Shown in pieces: positions 22,033 through 59,092 of a DNA stretch of 64,000 bases. The notes under the pieces are model-generated. The model searched no databases and was not told where the DNA came from. It saw only the letters and a program-made list of their open reading frames with translations. The stretch comes from Phycisphaera sp. (lineage in GTDB: Bacteria > Planctomycetota > Phycisphaerae > Phycisphaerales > Phycisphaeraceae), in assembly GCA_016125215.1 (NCBI GenBank), contig WGMF01000026.1, forward strand, positions 1-64,000, written 5' to 3'. Position 1 is the first letter of the stretch, and each line of letters opens with the position of its first letter. The position numbers and the translations under genes are program-made.

Positions 22033-22136
22033 CTCCCCTCCCTTTTCAGATGGAGGGGCCGGGGGAGGGTGTTCTCTCTTGTATTTGCAAAAAGACATCC
22101 CCTCCCCCAGCCCCGCCCCTTGAAAGGGGAGTGGGG
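22033..22136 (-). repeat. Dispersed palindromic element, copy A (intergenic, inverted)
   Basis: A copy of about 104 bp with CCCCTCCC-type arms enclosing a variable core. It is inverted relative to copies B, C and D. It fills the gap between a pilin gene and a convergent pseudopilin gene and could fold as a hairpin at both 3' ends. Confidence 0.8.
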
Positions 22137-26064: not shown

Positions 26065-26424
26065 TCACGGGAAAGGCAGGCCCATGATCCGTACGATGCG
26101 TAGGTTATAGGTTACCACCATTTTCATGAAAAGGGGTTCGAGCAGCGCAAGAGGCATCACGATCACCGCCAGGATAAGCATGTATTCCACGCTCAGCGCG
26201 CCGCGGTCGTCACGCAGGATTTGCACGGCTTTTTGCCACAGAGGGGACAAGCACGTATGGCCGGGTATGGAAAGCCCCGCCCCTTTGAAGGGGAGGGGTT
26301 GGGGAGGGGATGTACCGCGTGATATTCCCATAGATTCCCCATTGCGGTGCCTCGGAACACCCTCCCCCAGCCCCTCCCTCTGAAGAGGGAGGGGGGTTCT
26401 CATGCGGGCGGTAAGGGTTTTCAC
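26065..26424 (-). CDS. Flp-type pilin with a palindromic element inserted in its leader (copy 3)
   Basis: The mature part begins at DDRG followed by ALSVEYMLILAVIVMPLALL, a classic Flp motif with Glu +5 and Tyr +6. A short tail (MVVTYNLRIVRIMGLPFP) follows. The frame starts with GTG at 26424 overlapping the TGA of the CpaF gene (GTGA), so it is coupled to it. Residues about 10-50 are encoded by a 123-bp dispersed element, giving a leader near 75 residues instead of the usual 10-25. Peptidase cleavage after DDRG would discard the insert. Alternatively translation starts at a weak internal GTG near the mature part. Confidence 0.65.
   Translation of the reverse strand: MKTLTARMRTPLPLQREGLGEGVPRHRNGESMGISRGTSPPQPLPFKGAGLSIPGHTCLSPLWQKAVQILRDDRGALSVEYMLILAVIVMPLALLEPLFMKMVVTYNLRIVRIMGLPFP
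26275..26397 (-). repeat. Dispersed palindromic element, copy B (in frame, pilin leader)
   Basis: Its arms read CCCCTTTGAAGGGGAGGGG on one side and CCTCCCTCTGAAGAGGGAGG on the other, around a variable core. By hand count it is 123 bp, that is 41 codons. It is open in the pilin frame on the minus strand and encodes a peptide with PLPLQREGLGEG and PQPLPFKGAG. Confidence 0.85.
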
Positions 26425-52331: not shown

Positions 52332-52976
52332 ATGTCGCAAGCGATGACCGACGAGCAACTGTTGACCCGCGCCAAGGCCGGCGATTTCTCGGCGTTTGCC
52401 GGCCTTGTGGACCGCCACGCGGCGGGTGTTTACACGCTGGCGCGTCGGGTCCTGCGCAACGCCCACGACGCGGAGGATGTCGTGCAGACCACCTGGCTCA
52501 AGGCCCTCGAACACCTCGGCACGTTCCGTGAAGAATCGAGCTTCCAGACCTGGCTCCGGCGGATTGCCATGAACACGTCGCTCAATATTCTCCGGAAACA
52601 TAGGGGCCTGCCGATGTCCGCCCCGCTCGGCGGCAACGATCACGACGAGTACCCCGCGCACGGCCCCGAGGACATCCGTGAATGGCGAGAAGACGCGGTC
52701 GAACAGGCGCAGCGCAGGGAGGTGCGTGAGCAACTCGACCACGCCGTCGCTGAACTCGACGAGAAGCACCGCCTCGTCTTCGTGCTGCGTGACATCGAGG
52801 GCATGAGCGTCGAGGAGACGGCCGGTGCGCTGGGCATCTCGACATCGAACGTGAAGGTCCGCCTGATGCGCGCGCGTCTGAAACTGCGTGAGCGACTGAC
52901 CGGGGTGTTCGGTCAAGGCCCGGGGCTCAAGCCCGCGGGTCACGACCACAGCGGCCTGTCCACCCACCGGGGTTGA
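52332..52976 (+). CDS. ECF-type RNA polymerase sigma factor
   Basis: A 214-residue sigma factor. Region 2 has AEDVVQTTWLKALEHL, and region 4 has VEETAGALGISTSNVKVRLMRAR. The extension after region 4 is polar (GHDHSGLSTHRG). The anti-sigma gene follows 11 bases later, so this is probably an autoregulated stress regulon. It may control the RND cluster. Confidence 0.92.
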   Translation: MSQAMTDEQLLTRAKAGDFSAFAGLVDRHAAGVYTLARRVLRNAHDAEDVVQTTWLKALEHLGTFREESSFQTWLRRIAMNTSLNILRKHRGLPMSAPLGGNDHDEYPAHGPEDIREWREDAVEQAQRREVREQLDHAVAELDEKHRLVFVLRDIEGMSVEETAGALGISTSNVKVRLMRARLKLRERLTGVFGQGPGLKPAGHDHSGLSTHRG

Positions 52977-52987
52977 AGGGGATTCCC

Positions 52988-53230
52988 ATGGAATGCAAAG
53001 ACCTGCTCGAGCTCATCAACCAATACATCGACGAAGAGGTCGATGCGTCGGTCTGCGAGAAGTTCGAGAAGCACCTGGCCGAGTGCAAACCCTGCCGTGT
53101 GGTCATTGATTCCATCCGTGGGACGATCCAGCTTTACCGGGGCGACCAGCCGTATGAACTGCCCGACGATGTCCGCAACCGCCTGCACGAAACACTTCAA
53201 AAACACTGGTCCAGGCCGCAAGAGGGTTGA
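52988..53230 (+). CDS. Soluble zinc-binding anti-sigma factor (ZAS type)
   Basis: An 80-residue protein with the ZAS zinc ligands Cys3, His29, Cys33 and Cys36 (HLAECKPC). There is no membrane helix, unlike many zf-HC2 anti-sigma factors. It resembles RsrA-type redox-sensitive anti-sigma factors. GAAGGGG precedes the ATG. It presumably holds the ECF factor and releases it on thiol oxidation. Confidence 0.85.
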   Translation: MECKDLLELINQYIDEEVDASVCEKFEKHLAECKPCRVVIDSIRGTIQLYRGDQPYELPDDVRNRLHETLQKHWSRPQEG

Positions 53231-53621: not shown

Positions 53622-56489
53622 ATGAATTTCCACCCCGCGCGATCGGTCATCCGATTCTCACTCGACCACCCGAATGTCATCACCGCACTGATGCTCGGTT
53701 CGACGCTCGTGCTCCTTGCGCTCGCGGCGATCCCCACGGTGTTGCAACACCCCGTCGGTCCGCTGCCGCCGGCCCGCATCGACACCGACCCGGAGAACAT
53801 GCTCCCCCACGACGAGCCGCACCGCGTCTACCACGACCGGATGAAACGCAACTTCTCGATGTGGGACATGGTCGTCGTCGGTGTCGTCAACGACAAAAAT
53901 CCGCAGGGCGTCTTCAACCCCGATTCGCTCTTGCGCATCAGGCAACTGACCGACTACGCCAAGACCCTCACCTGGCCCGACCCCGGCTTCCCCGACGACC
54001 CGACCAAACGCCGCGGCGTGATCGAACCGGACATCATCGCGCCGTCGGTCGTGGACAACATCCAACAGGGCCGGCAGGGGGAAGTGGTCTTCAGTTGGCT
54101 CATGCCGCGCGTGCCGGTGAGCAACACACAAGCCGGCGAGGTCCGTGACGCCGCGCTGAAAATCCCATTCCTCAAGGGCACGCTCGTCAGCGAAGACGGC
54201 AAGGCCATTGCGATCTACCTGCCGATCACCAGCAAGGACATGTCGTACGAAATTCGGCAGAAACTGCTGGAGAAGATTGCCACGTTCGGGAGCGTCGATG
54301 ACGAGTTCCACATCACCGGCCTGCCCGTCGCCGAGGACACGTTCGGCGTCGAGATGTTCTACCAGATGGCGATCTCCGCGCCGCTGGCGATGGGCGTGAT
54401 CTTCCTGCTCATGTGGTTTTTCTTCAAGAAGCTCTCGCTCATTGTTCCGCCGATGGTCATTGCGATGGTCTGCGCCGTGGGCACGATGGCGCTGCTCGTC
54501 ATCACGGGCAACACCATCCACATCATGAGCTCGATGATCCCGATCTTCATCATGCCCATCGCGGTGCTCGACGCGATCCACATCCTCAGCGACTTCTTCG
54601 ACCGTTACCGCCAATTGCGAGAGAGGCGCAAGACCATCGAGCACGTCATGGACACGCTGTTTATGCCGATGCTTTTCACGTCGCTCACCACCGTGGCAGG
54701 CTTTGCATCGCTGGCCTTGACACCCATCCCGCCGGTGCAGGTCTTTGGCATCTTCGTCGGCATCGGCGTGTCGCTGGCTTGGATATGGACCATCACCTTC
54801 ATCCCCGCGGCGGTCATGCTCATCCCCGAGCGCTGGCTTGCGTCGCTGGCCACCGGTGCCCAGGCACACACGCACGACGAAGCGCACGGCTGGCTCGGAC
54901 GCGTGCTCCCCGTCGTCGGGCAGATGACTCACCGCTACGCCAAAGCGATCCTCGTGCTCACGGTCCTGGTCTCGCTCGTCTCGGAGTACGGCATGAGCCG
55001 AATCACCATCAACGACAACCCGACCAAGTGGTTCACCGACAGCCACCCGATCCGTGTCGCGGACCGTGTGCTCAACGAACACTTCGGCGGGACGTACATG
55101 GCGTTTCTCACGCTCGCGCCCAAGGCTGAAGCAGAAACTCCCACGCCTCACACCAAGGCGGACCTACCCCCGGTCATCGACCCACCCTCGGCATCAGGCG
55201 ATGCATTGCCGGACTTACCCGCGGGGCTGGGCGGCGATGGCCCGGCGCTGCCCGAGGGTCTGGGCGGTGACGCTGTGATGCAAATGCCCACGCCCACGCC
55301 AAACACTTTCACGGTCGCTGACGAACCCTTCAAACAGCCCGAGGTCCTGCGGTACATCGCTGACCTGCAGCAATACCTGCTCACCGTGACCGACGGGCGG
55401 GGCGACAAACTCGTCGGCAAGAGCAACTCCGTAACCGACCTGGTCAAGACCGTCCACCGTGAACTACTCAGCGGCACACAGGCTGATTTTCGTGTGCCCG
55501 ACTCGGCAAACGGTGTGGCAGACACGCTGCTCCAGTTCCAGAACAGCCACCGACCGCAGGACCTTTGGCACTTCATCACGCCCGACCACCGCGAGGCCAG
55601 CCTCTGGCTTCAACTGCGCAGCGGCGACAACCGTGACATGTCGCGCGTCGTCCACGCCGTCGACCGATACATCCAGGGCCACCCGCTCCCGGCGGGACTC
55701 GAGCACAAGTGGTTCGGCTTGACCTACATCAACGTCATCTGGCAGGAGCGCATGGTCAGCGGCATGTTGCAGGCGTTCCTCGGCAGCTTCCTCGTGGTGC
55801 TGCTCATGATGATTTTCCTCTTCCGTTCCGGGTTGTGGGGTTTGCTCTCAATGATCCCGCTCACGGTGACGGTGGGGCTGATCTATGGCTTGATCGGCTT
55901 GGTCGGCAAGGACTACGACATGCCCATCGCGGTGCTCAGTTCGCTGTCGCTGGGGCTTGCGGTGGACTATGCGATCCACTTCCTGGCACGCAGCCGGGAG
56001 GCTTACAGGGAGCACGGCTCGTGGGCCGGGGCCGTCGGTCCGATGTTCGGCGAGCCGGCCCGTGCCATCACGCGCAACGCCATCGTCGTGGGTGTGGGCT
56101 TTCTGCCGTTGCTCGCTGCGCCGCTCGTGCCCTACAAGACCGTCGGCCTGTTCATCGCGCTGATCCTCCTGACCGCGGGTTTTGCGTCGCTGTTGATCCT
56201 GCCGGCCCTGCTCACGGTGCTGGAGAAGTGGCTCTTCCCCTCGACCGCAGCCAAGTCGATGACCTGCCGGTGCGGGACCTGCGTGCTCAGCGCTCTGGCC
56301 GCCGTGGCATTGGTCGCCATCAACGTGCATCAGTTTCTGGACATCGGCTGGACACACATGACCTGGGCTAGTTTAGGCGCGGTGGTCGTGCTGCTGGGGC
56401 TGTGCTGGGCCTCGTCACGCAGGGCGTCGTGCAAGACCCCGGACACCGCGGAACAAACCGATCAACACACGCAAGGAGCGTCATCATGA
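53622..56489 (+). CDS. RND/MMPL-family exporter
   Basis: A 955-residue inner-membrane transporter. Helix 1 (about 20-41) precedes a first periplasmic loop with NMLPHDEPHRVYHD. Helices around 240-430 follow, with the sterol-sensing-like IPIFIMPIAVLDAIHIL. A second periplasmic loop (about 465-690) and a last helix group (about 705-870) follow. Residues 531-549 hold two copies of an LPxGLGG motif. An extra C-terminal pair of helices with Cys residues (CRCGTC) is unusual. Its cargo is probably a lipid or hydrophobic compound; see the LolA-like gene that overlaps it. Confidence 0.88.
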   Translation: MNFHPARSVIRFSLDHPNVITALMLGSTLVLLALAAIPTVLQHPVGPLPPARIDTDPENMLPHDEPHRVYHDRMKRNFSMWDMVVVGVVNDKNPQGVFNPDSLLRIRQLTDYAKTLTWPDPGFPDDPTKRRGVIEPDIIAPSVVDNIQQGRQGEVVFSWLMPRVPVSNTQAGEVRDAALKIPFLKGTLVSEDGKAIAIYLPITSKDMSYEIRQKLLEKIATFGSVDDEFHITGLPVAEDTFGVEMFYQMAISAPLAMGVIFLLMWFFFKKLSLIVPPMVIAMVCAVGTMALLVITGNTIHIMSSMIPIFIMPIAVLDAIHILSDFFDRYRQLRERRKTIEHVMDTLFMPMLFTSLTTVAGFASLALTPIPPVQVFGIFVGIGVSLAWIWTITFIPAAVMLIPERWLASLATGAQAHTHDEAHGWLGRVLPVVGQMTHRYAKAILVLTVLVSLVSEYGMSRITINDNPTKWFTDSHPIRVADRVLNEHFGGTYMAFLTLAPKAEAETPTPHTKADLPPVIDPPSASGDALPDLPAGLGGDGPALPEGLGGDAVMQMPTPTPNTFTVADEPFKQPEVLRYIADLQQYLLTVTDGRGDKLVGKSNSVTDLVKTVHRELLSGTQADFRVPDSANGVADTLLQFQNSHRPQDLWHFITPDHREASLWLQLRSGDNRDMSRVVHAVDRYIQGHPLPAGLEHKWFGLTYINVIWQERMVSGMLQAFLGSFLVVLLMMIFLFRSGLWGLLSMIPLTVTVGLIYGLIGLVGKDYDMPIAVLSSLSLGLAVDYAIHFLARSREAYREHGSWAGAVGPMFGEPARAITRNAIVVGVGFLPLLAAPLVPYKTVGLFIALILLTAGFASLLILPALLTVLEKWLFPSTAAKSMTCRCGTCVLSALAAVALVAINVHQFLDIGWTHMTWASLGAVVVLLGLCWASSRRASCKTPDTAEQTDQHTQGASS

Positions 56490-57505
56490 AACGCAGGGTT
56501 GTGAATGAAAAGCCCCTCCCCTTTGAAGGGGAGGGGTTGGGGAGGGGATGTGCAGCAGGGTATTTCAGATTGTTACCCATAGTGGTGACTCGAAACACCC
56601 TCCCCCAACCCCTCCCTCTGAAGAGGGAGGGGAGTTTTCAAGCACGATCTAAGCATTGGGCAATGCTTGCGGGACTGCTGATTGTGCACGTGAGCGTGTT
56701 GTTCACGCAGCCCACGCGCGCCCAAGGCGCGGACGACAAGCCCGTTGCCACACCGGGCGTGGAGGAGATCGTCCATCACGCCAATTACATGGCCTACTAC
56801 CAGGGCCGGGACGGACGCGCCAAGGTCACGATGACGATCACCGACAGCCAGGGCAGGCAACGCAACAGGCAGTTCACAATCCCGCGCCGCGACGACACGG
56901 AGTCCGAGGACCTGGCCGACGCCGCCTATCGAAGTCGGCAGAAGTTCTATGTTTATTTCCACCAGCCCCCCGACGTCGCGGGCACGGTCTTCATGGTCCA
57001 CAAGCACCTGACGGGCGACGACGACCGCTGGCTCTACCTCCCCGGCTTGGACCTGGTCAAGCGCATCGCCGCCACGGACAAACGCACGAGCTTCGTCGGG
57101 TCGGACTTCTTCTACGAAGACGTGTCGGGACGCAGCATCGACCTCGACGAGCACGAACTGACGCAGACCACCGATAATTATTTTGTATTGAAAAACACGC
57201 CCAAAGACCCGGACTCGGTCGAGTTTTCCCACTACGTGATGTATCTCCACCGGGCCAGCTTCATCCCGGTCCAGACCATTTACTACGACAAGAACGGCGA
57301 AAAATACCGCGTGTACAAGGCCCTGAAGGTCGAAACGATCGGCGGCCACCCGACCGTCACACGCTCAACGATGCAGAACCTCAAGACCGGCAGCACCACC
57401 GACATGACCTACACCGATGTGAAATACGACACCGGCATCCCCGACGAGGTCTTCACCGAGCGTTACCTGCGCAAGCCGCCCGCGGAGTATCTTGGCAGCG
57501 AGTGA
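56486..57505 (+). CDS. LolA-like outer-membrane lipoprotein-sorting protein with an inserted element in its signal peptide
   Basis: A 339-residue periplasmic protein of the PF17131 type, with RQFTIPRRDDTES, WLYLPGLDLVKRIA and FVGSDFFYEDVSGR. ATG 56486 overlaps the RND stop (ATGA) and has AAGGAG upstream. The N-terminus is MKRRVVNE, then 41 codons of a dispersed palindromic element (56512-56634). The signal-peptide core (MLAGLLIVHVSVLFTQ, cut near TRAQG) comes only after it. If the start is as coded, signal peptidase would remove the insert. An internal ATG at AMLAGLL could also serve. It probably carries lipid between the RND pump and the barrel protein. Confidence 0.82.
   Translation: MKRRVVNEKPLPFEGEGLGRGCAAGYFRLLPIVVTRNTLPQPLPLKREGSFQARSKHWAMLAGLLIVHVSVLFTQPTRAQGADDKPVATPGVEEIVHHANYMAYYQGRDGRAKVTMTITDSQGRQRNRQFTIPRRDDTESEDLADAAYRSRQKFYVYFHQPPDVAGTVFMVHKHLTGDDDRWLYLPGLDLVKRIAATDKRTSFVGSDFFYEDVSGRSIDLDEHELTQTTDNYFVLKNTPKDPDSVEFSHYVMYLHRASFIPVQTIYYDKNGEKYRVYKALKVETIGGHPTVTRSTMQNLKTGSTTDMTYTDVKYDTGIPDEVFTERYLRKPPAEYLGSE
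56512..56634 (+). repeat. Dispersed palindromic element, copy C (in frame, signal peptide)
   Basis: It has the same arms as copy B (CCCTTTGAAGGGGAGGGG and CCTCTGAAGAGGGAGGGG) and, by hand count, is 123 bp long. It is open in the LolA-like frame and encodes KPLPFEGEGLGRG and PQPLPLKREGS. It is read from the strand opposite to that used by the gene at copy B. Confidence 0.85.
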
Positions 57506-57538
57506 TCGGTTGGCCAGTCTTCGTATTGGGAGTTGCGA

Positions 57539-58954
57539 ATGTTTGTGCGAGCGTCCATCGGTGCGGTGTTGGGTGTGGGTGTTGTTCTGACCACACACAG
57601 CGTGTGCGCGGAGGAACCCACGCTGCCCGAGGGGTTGGATATCCCGGCGGTCACGACACCGCCCGACGCGCCCGACCTTCCCGAAGGCCTCGGCGGTGGA
57701 ACGGAACCGACCCAGCCAGCCGCGCCACCCGCGATGGCCAAAGACAAACTCCCCTTCGACCTGTCCGGCTTCTTCGAGGTGCGCATCGGGCCTTACACGC
57801 AAAGTGCGCCGGGCCAGCGCAACGTGGCTGTGGCCGAGTCACGCCTGCAGTTACAGGTAGACAAGACCTGGCACAAGGTGGCGTTCCGACTGACGGGGGA
57901 TTTTCTACTCGACGCGGTGCCTTACTCGAACGCGATCGACCCCGAACTCGGCCAGGGCTGGATCGACCTGCGCGAGGCGTATGTCAGTTTCTCGCCGATC
58001 GATTTTGTGGACATCAAAGCGGGCAGGCAGGTTCTCACGTGGGGCACCGGCGATTTGCTCTTCCTCAACGACCTGTTCCCCAAGGACTGGAACTCGTTTC
58101 TCATCGGACGCGACACCGAGTACCTCAAAGCCCCGTCGGACGCGGTCAAAGTTTCGCTGTTCAGTGACATCGTCAACATCGACATGGTCTACACCCCGGC
58201 CTTCGACGCGGACCGTTTCGTCGATGGTCGTCGGGTGAGCTACTTCAACCCGATGGTCGGTTCGACGGTCGGTCGCAGCACGGTGCGTTTTGTGGATCGC
58301 CCTCAGCACACCTTCAGCGATGACGAATTCGCGGCCCGTCTCTACCGCAGGCTCGGCGCGTGGGAGCTGGCGGGCTACCTCTACCTCGGTTATTGGAAAA
58401 GCCCGACGGGCACGGACCCGATGACCGGGCGCGGCACGTTCCCCGGCCTGAATGTTTACGGCGCGTCGATCCGTGGCCCCCTGGCCGAGGGCATCTTCAA
58501 CGCCGAGTTGGCTTTCTACGACTCACGTGACGACCGGGGTGGGAGCAACCCCTTTGTCAACAACGACGAGCTGCGTTTCCTCGTCGGCTTTGAACGCGAG
58601 GTGGCGCCGGACTTCACCGTGGGTTTGCAGTATTACCTCGAACAGATGCTTGATCACAACGACTACCGCGCGACGCTCCCGGTCGGCGTCCCGAGGCGCG
58701 ACGAGCTGCGCCACGTCGTCACCGCGCGGTTCACACTCATGACGATGATGCAGAACCTCGAGTGGTCGCTCTTTGTCTTCTACAGCCCGTCCGACAACGA
58801 CGCCTACCTGCGCCCGCGCGTCCATTACAAGGTCAGCGACCACTGGTCAGCGGAAATCGGCGCAAACGTGCTGATCGGCGCTAACGAGACAACCTTCTTC
58901 GGTCAGTTCCGGGACATGAGCAACGTCTATGTCGCCGCGCGGTATTCGTTCTAA
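57539..58954 (+). CDS. Outer-membrane beta-barrel protein (DUF1302-like)
   Basis: A 471-residue protein. A signal peptide (GAVLGVGVVLTTHSVCA) is followed by a Pro-rich periplasmic stretch with LPEGL at 29-33 and LPEGLGG at 47-53. The barrel follows: alternating amphipathic strands such as DLSGFFEVRIG and DFTVGLQYYLEQML, ending in YVAARYSF with a terminal Phe. It is the third gene of the RND cluster. GGGAG precedes ATG 57539; the TTG two codons earlier is less likely. It may be the exit pore of the export route. Confidence 0.82.
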   Translation: MFVRASIGAVLGVGVVLTTHSVCAEEPTLPEGLDIPAVTTPPDAPDLPEGLGGGTEPTQPAAPPAMAKDKLPFDLSGFFEVRIGPYTQSAPGQRNVAVAESRLQLQVDKTWHKVAFRLTGDFLLDAVPYSNAIDPELGQGWIDLREAYVSFSPIDFVDIKAGRQVLTWGTGDLLFLNDLFPKDWNSFLIGRDTEYLKAPSDAVKVSLFSDIVNIDMVYTPAFDADRFVDGRRVSYFNPMVGSTVGRSTVRFVDRPQHTFSDDEFAARLYRRLGAWELAGYLYLGYWKSPTGTDPMTGRGTFPGLNVYGASIRGPLAEGIFNAELAFYDSRDDRGGSNPFVNNDELRFLVGFEREVAPDFTVGLQYYLEQMLDHNDYRATLPVGVPRRDELRHVVTARFTLMTMMQNLEWSLFVFYSPSDNDAYLRPRVHYKVSDHWSAEIGANVLIGANETTFFGQFRDMSNVYVAARYSF

Positions 58955-58974: not shown

Positions 58975-59074
58975 CTCCCCTCACCTTTCAAGGGGAGGAG
59001 CGGGGGGGATGTCCGCTGTAGATTGCAGGAACGCACACCCTCCCCCGGCCCCTCCCTCTGAAGAGGGAGGGGAG
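58975..59074 (+). repeat. Dispersed palindromic element, copy D (intergenic)
   Basis: About 100 bp with CCTCCCTCTGAAGAGGGAGGGG at the right arm and a shortened core. It lies between the convergent barrel gene and sulfatase. Its length by hand count is not a multiple of three, unlike the two coding copies. Confidence 0.8.
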
Positions 59075-59092
59075 TAAGAGGACGCAGATGGA

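Follow-up and report, generated by a model that had tools for sequence, protein, structure and literature searches.

The stretch of DNA analyzed here (the window: 64,000 nucleotides of contig WGMF01000026.1 from the Phycisphaera sp. assembly GCA_016125215.1) carries a cassette of three genes for an RND transporter, a LolA-like carrier and an outer-membrane barrel protein. The genes are contiguous and lie head to tail on the plus strand with no gene between them, while genes for a sigma factor and a zinc finger protein are located upstream. The first gene (53622..56489, +) encodes an RND (HAE3/MMPL) inner-membrane transporter of 955 amino acids with two MMPL-type membrane halves, matched by PF03176 in two stretches (108 bits against a cut-off of 20.5, E 5e-31). 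Since its best NCBIfam match, TIGR00921 HAE3, scores 160.8 bits and thus stays below the cut-off of 351.9, the transporter is HAE3-like by best match only. The second open reading frame (56486..57505, +) encodes the putative LolA-like periplasmic carrier, which matches PF17131 LolA_like (193.9 bits against a cut-off of 30, E 2.7e-57); this is the better family, as the Pfam match to DUF1329 is weak. The first 58 codons of this frame largely correspond to a dispersed genomic repeat, and the true start is likely ATG 56660 (MLAGLLIVHV..., a signal peptide). The third gene (57533..58954, +) encodes the barrel protein of 471-473 amino acids, starting at TTG 57533 or ATG 57539, a remote DUF1302 protein with a marginal match to PF06980 (24.3 bits against a cut-off of 23.2, E 2e-5). 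A search of NCBIfam gave no family name for the LolA-like or the barrel protein.

The transporter and the barrel protein carry the same short motif. In the RND it occurs twice in the second periplasmic loop, between the two transporter halves, as LPAGLGG at residues 532-538 (55215..55235, +) and LPEGLGG at residues 543-549 (55248..55268, +). In the barrel protein both copies follow the signal peptide and precede the first barrel strand: EPTLPEGL comes directly after the signal peptide (57614..57637, +) and APDLPEGLGG lies about 23 residues ahead of the first strand (57668..57697, +). Counted from ATG 57539, LPEGL and LPEGLGG are residues 29-33 and 47-53 (nucleotides 57623 and 57677-57697); counted from TTG 57533 they start at residues 31 and 49. 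Our re-reading of the sequence agrees in every residue number and coordinate with a preliminary description of the locus, which first pointed out the shared motif. A third LPAGL of the RND, at residue 689 (nucleotide 55686), is located in the folded second half and is a different thing from the loop motif; PLPxGL also occurs in the corresponding part of the RNDs of L102, L275, L282, L288 and L290.

The loop contains two LP.GL matches where 0.013 are expected, and none of 20,000 composition-matched shuffles reached two. When the 4.04 Mb genome was searched with a DNA pattern for LPxGLGG (CTN leucines), six matches were found, and the only two in long reading frames belong to the RND and the barrel protein. 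The copies differ in their codons, at third codon positions, indicating that they are not a recent DNA copy of each other. Recent gene conversion between the two genes is therefore not supported.

Distribution of the motif in barrel proteins and transporters

Alignment of barrel-protein N-termini gave the consensus [E/A/G/S]-P-x-L-P-x-G-L-[G], present in one to six copies right behind the signal peptide. Among 80 orthologous N-termini we counted 223 copies, where composition predicts 1.4; the motif is thus far above chance in both the RND loop and the barrel tail. Proline occupies position -2 in 217 of the 223 copies, the median spacing is 15 residues, and the last copy lies about 20-25 residues ahead of the first barrel strand. 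The L-P-x-G-L core recurs, while the stretches that separate the copies differ in both length and sequence.

Motif-bearing barrel proteins occur in many phyla. The genomes were sampled rather than exhaustively collected and many are metagenome assemblies; within this sample the cassette was detected in 49 of 297 genomes of the window's class and was not found in those of its family and order. A second set of barrel proteins, chiefly from the planctomycete families f12, f19 and f22, has no motif. Sites of an EPxLPxGL DNA pattern in 22 genomes fall nearly all within the barrel-protein gene, and this genome-wide search found no tandem copies in any other protein, ruling out a motif common to exported proteins generally. 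One unrelated match, EPALPVGLTLDPVTGVISG in L220, presumably resembles a cadherin-like/He_PIG repeat. Neighboring genes in the other clusters had no common theme that would name a cargo.

The motif is much rarer in the transporter, where it was detected in 10 of 139 clusters. In most RND orthologs the second periplasmic loop contains no motif but a helical insert some 75 residues long. The window's RND, which has no such insert, and eight RNDs from Hydrogenedentota carry two to four motif copies in its place, and the RND of L046 has one copy next to the insert; in every case the copies are within the same loop. In an RND tree built without this loop, motif-bearing transporters fall in separate places, and the AU test rejects a single-clade origin (p 1.2e-7). 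At least three changes are required by branches with good support, and parsimony cannot divide them into gains and losses. By this phylogeny the RND motif has more than one origin.

All ten genomes with an RND motif also have the barrel-protein motif, although in three of them the barrel gene was located by genome search and does not adjoin LolA. The likeliest direction is that the RND acquires the tag of the barrel protein, not the reverse. It would be attractive to regard the helical insert as a LolA dock that the motif replaces, but four RNDs (L051, L093, L129 and L142) have neither, which indicates that a LolA dock in the RND loop is dispensable. The preliminary description had treated the motif as a paired feature of RND and barrel protein and proposed to check its co-occurrence over orthologous clusters. 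Most clusters turned out to carry it in one protein only, and we consider it a feature of the barrel protein. These one-protein clusters weaken the argument from co-occurrence; they do not weaken docking, because every genome with the RND motif has the barrel motif and the RND copies arose separately.

Co-variation with a LolA residue and structure prediction

If the LolA-like protein reads the motif, it can be expected to differ where the motif is absent. One residue, His255 in the numbering of the window's open reading frame (57248..57250, +), tracks the motif. In a first set, histidine was found at this column in all motif-positive LolAs and never in motif-negative ones, which mostly have Asp (Asp/Asn); over 135 clusters it is present in 77 of 79 motif-positive and in none of 56 motif-negative clusters. 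These counts take L150 as motif-negative, since its KLPFGLH lies at the barrel start, and L086, which has a split frame, as motif-positive; both fit the rule. The two exceptions are the sisters L261 and L262, which have the motif in both RND and barrel protein and Asp in LolA. Pseudomonadales cassettes that had not been used to find the rule follow it as well: 15 without the motif lack the histidine (mostly Asp/Asn), and three of three clusters with the motif have it.

Nested losses of the motif are accompanied by Asp at LolA 255. In L134, a Nitrospira cluster with such a loss in its barrel protein, only this column, with a change from His to Asp, differs among the 43 whose conservation in LolA is at least 95%, while the same test found no change in 208 conserved RND columns. 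No barrel column separates motif-positive from motif-negative clusters. Quick trees underlie the count of four motif changes and three independent pairs; all three pairs are concordant (sign test p 0.25), and with only three the count cannot reach significance alone.

Structure prediction was performed on an ortholog from Hahella (L131), in which the LolA and barrel genes are in frame with each other and separated by only one stop, so that read-through of the natural DNA gives a single LolA-barrel chain. AlphaFold2, in one run with 82 alignment rows on this one ortholog joined by its read-through linker, modeled the chain at a mean pLDDT of 86.8. The last motif copy (residues 300-309) reached a pLDDT of about 83 and forms a beta bridge at residue 305, and the earlier copies stayed at about 50 or less. 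When the barrel protein was modeled alone with the same barrel rows, the motif copies were disordered (37-49 over the block, about 41 for the last copy). The prediction with the LolA-like protein suggested by the preliminary description thus orders the last copy only if the chain includes LolA. The simplest reading of the model is that this copy docks on LolA, a contact deduced from the barrel-alone control rather than from coordinates or PAE; the covalent join may help the ordering. The best PDB match of the modeled LolA is 9tp6 (LolA3 of Porphyromonas gingivalis, TM 0.85 by target), and its LolA half-barrel fold is further matched by 4z48 (a DUF1329 protein, ranked third) and 3bk5; the modeled barrel has weak matches to porins.

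The motif is probably a short linear tag on which the cassette's own soluble LolA-like carrier docks. This was the suggestion of the preliminary description, and it now draws on the co-variation of one LolA residue, for which RND and barrel columns served as controls, and on the AlphaFold2 result; the pairing of motifs from which it was originally argued is not general. Binding of LolA to the motif would be the physical basis, as the sequences and the model suggest.

Among the alternatives, it is unlikely that the motif docks on the periplasmic domains of the RND itself, so that the barrel tail spans the periplasm and ties both membranes together while LolA His255 changes for another reason. 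Some RND columns do separate the groups well (Arg613 is present in 100% of motif-positive and 12% of motif-negative clusters, Thr610 in 97% and 10%), and a disordered tail 50-100 residues long could reach across much of the periplasm. However, few of the conserved RND columns, none of which changes in L134, change in two further clusters, L149 and L152, whereas LolA His255 has changed in all three. In addition, the RND itself carries the motif in several lineages, and the model orders the motif with no RND present.

An exported barrel protein with the motif close to its N-terminus would also suit recognition of the motif by a general factor acting on that protein, such as SurA, BAM or a peptidoglycan or lipoprotein partner. 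We regard this as quite improbable, given that other exported proteins of the 22 genomes have no tandem copies, that the motif tracks the cassette's own LolA, and that it is carried by RNDs, which are not BAM clients. Short, disordered repeats of variable copy number and spacing could be a flexible proline-glycine linker with no partner, the RND copies being convergent low-complexity sequence; the recurring core, its numerical excess, its reappearance in separate RND lineages and the co-variation with LolA make such a linker very improbable. That the last copy, close as it is to the first strand, folds back into its own barrel as a plug or gate is hardly credible, since the copies are disordered when the barrel protein is modeled alone, no column of the barrel protein follows the motif, and the motif arises in an inner-membrane protein too.

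Under LolA docking, the barrel protein would display one to six tags on a flexible periplasmic tail behind the signal peptide, and these could catch the loaded carrier beside the barrel and concentrate it where a hydrophobic cargo would be handed over. Where the RND loop has copies as well, as in the window and some other lineages, usually replacing the helical insert, they might park the carrier at the loading end too. Relatives linked to alkanes and terpenes suggest, by analogy, that the cargo may be very hydrophobic.

Other cassettes may use a different tag. A Pseudomonadales sister clade without LPxGL has no LolA histidine at 255, and most of its barrel tails carry an acidic tryptophan segment, DDWGDxWxEE, at the place of the motif; examples are ADDWGDPWAEEE, DDWGDDSWGDEPE and EDSWDDEWGESE. 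In natural RND-LolA fusions the barrel proteins have no LPxGL tail and the fused LolA has no histidine at the 255 column. The missing barrel motif fits a tag that is needed for a free carrier, although L129, a fusion of the close family, retains it. A broader reading, to which we give a little less than even weight, is that RND-LolA-barrel cassettes across bacterial phyla follow an addressing code, in which short tags on membrane proteins recruit the LolA-like carrier through lineage-specific pairs of tag and reader (LPxGL and LolA His; DDWGDxWxEE and LolA Asp/Asn) and tags may sit on the inner- as well as the outer-membrane partner.

Relation to known systems and biological meaning

Known periplasmic linear motifs are few, and the TonB box is the classic one. 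It works in a comparable way: situated close to the N-terminus of a barrel in the outer membrane, this short sequence recruits a partner from the periplasm. The partner of the TonB box is TonB, whereas the tag described here has up to six copies and a soluble carrier as its proposed partner. The window's barrel protein has no match to a plug or TonB-receptor family, only to DUF1302; it may work like a TonB box protein, yet judged by these family matches it is not a member of the TonB receptors. The carrier has its fold in common with the LolA/LolB pathway, as represented by LolA3 of Porphyromonas gingivalis (9tp6, PMC13103446). That pathway uses LolCDE and LolB, while in the window an RND and a barrel protein take their place as partners of the carrier, and a linear motif would serve for hand-over. 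DUF1329 proteins (4z48) are a more distant comparison, being third in rank by fold, with PF17131 the better family for the carrier.

In outline, this type of cassette is known from AmeABCD (PMC6394551) and TOL_3187/TOL_3188 (PMC6304351). In the portion of the AmeABCD report from Castellaniella defragrans considered here, an HAE3-type RND is co-expressed with a DUF1302 outer-membrane protein and a DUF1329/LolA-related periplasmic protein, a make-up common with the window, and deletion lowers monoterpene tolerance (PMC6394551). As described there, AmeABCD has two periplasmic proteins, of which the window's cassette lacks the second, and a DUF1302 protein of 605 amino acids compared with 471-473; this description, our only basis of comparison, does not include a tail motif (PMC6394551). 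In Thalassolituus oleivorans, an MMPL transporter with a LolA-like part adjoins a predicted porin; TOL_3187 was up 42-fold on n-C28 alkane and TOL_3188 was seen only on n-C28 (PMC6304351). RND and LolA form one protein in that system and are separate in the window (PMC6304351); comparable fused systems of Pseudomonadales have no motif.

Our searches of open-licence papers turned up no mention of the motif, of how widely it occurs, of its presence in RNDs or of its tie to LolA. For most RND-LolA systems it is, to our knowledge, an open question how a soluble carrier in the periplasm locates its proper outer-membrane acceptor. With a conserved tag some eight residues long and a single carrier residue that tracks it, this question becomes testable by means of a peptide and a point mutant, and the tag provides a sequence handle for pairing orphan LolA-like proteins with barrels. 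If LolA docking is true, carrier docking would join the few periplasmic linear motifs. Such cassettes seem tied to very hydrophobic compounds, as judged from relatives linked to alkanes and terpenes, and the tag may thus bear on how these bacteria handle hydrocarbons.

Upstream genes and the LolA start

Two genes lie directly upstream of the RND transporter gene (window 52332-53230): one encodes an ECF sigma factor, the other a zf-HC2 zinc-finger protein that is a possible anti-sigma. This pair may regulate the RND-LolA-barrel cassette. The N-terminus of the annotated LolA ORF (window 56500-56660) is a dispersed repeat, PLPFEGEGLGRG...LPQPLPLKREG, with about 50 matches in the genome; in the window it also occurs at 26267-26405, 22033-22134 and 59035-59075. 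The true LolA start is therefore probably the ATG at 56660, which would place the repeat between the RND and LolA genes.

Variation in RND transporters and barrel-protein tails

RND and LolA share a single reading frame in one close-family case, a Rhodospirillales MAG (L129:4558-7893), and are also fused in a distant group from Pseudomonadales (L291-L300). The second periplasmic loop lacks both the helical insert and the LPxGL motif in the RNDs of four cassette loci (L051, L093, L129 and L142), leaving a remnant of 10-23 aa.

In Pseudomonadales loci L275 and L301-L314, an acidic Trp motif, DDWGDxWxEE, replaces LPxGL in the barrel-protein tails, and the LolA His site is Asp/Asn. Motif-negative planctomycete barrel proteins (L047-L079) often have in common a short aromatic segment (QSFWSQWAPPEVHGF, DSFLSNIPIETHGF) immediately N-terminal of the barrel, which could perhaps represent a third tag.

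Distribution and origin of the cassette

This Gram-negative outer-membrane cassette is present on a contig filed under a Halobacteria archaeon MAG (L125); the contig is probably misbinned. Sampling of the family and the order to which the window belongs turned up no genome with the cassette, apart from a single remote barrel match (27%) in genome G039; the cassette may therefore have been acquired horizontally.
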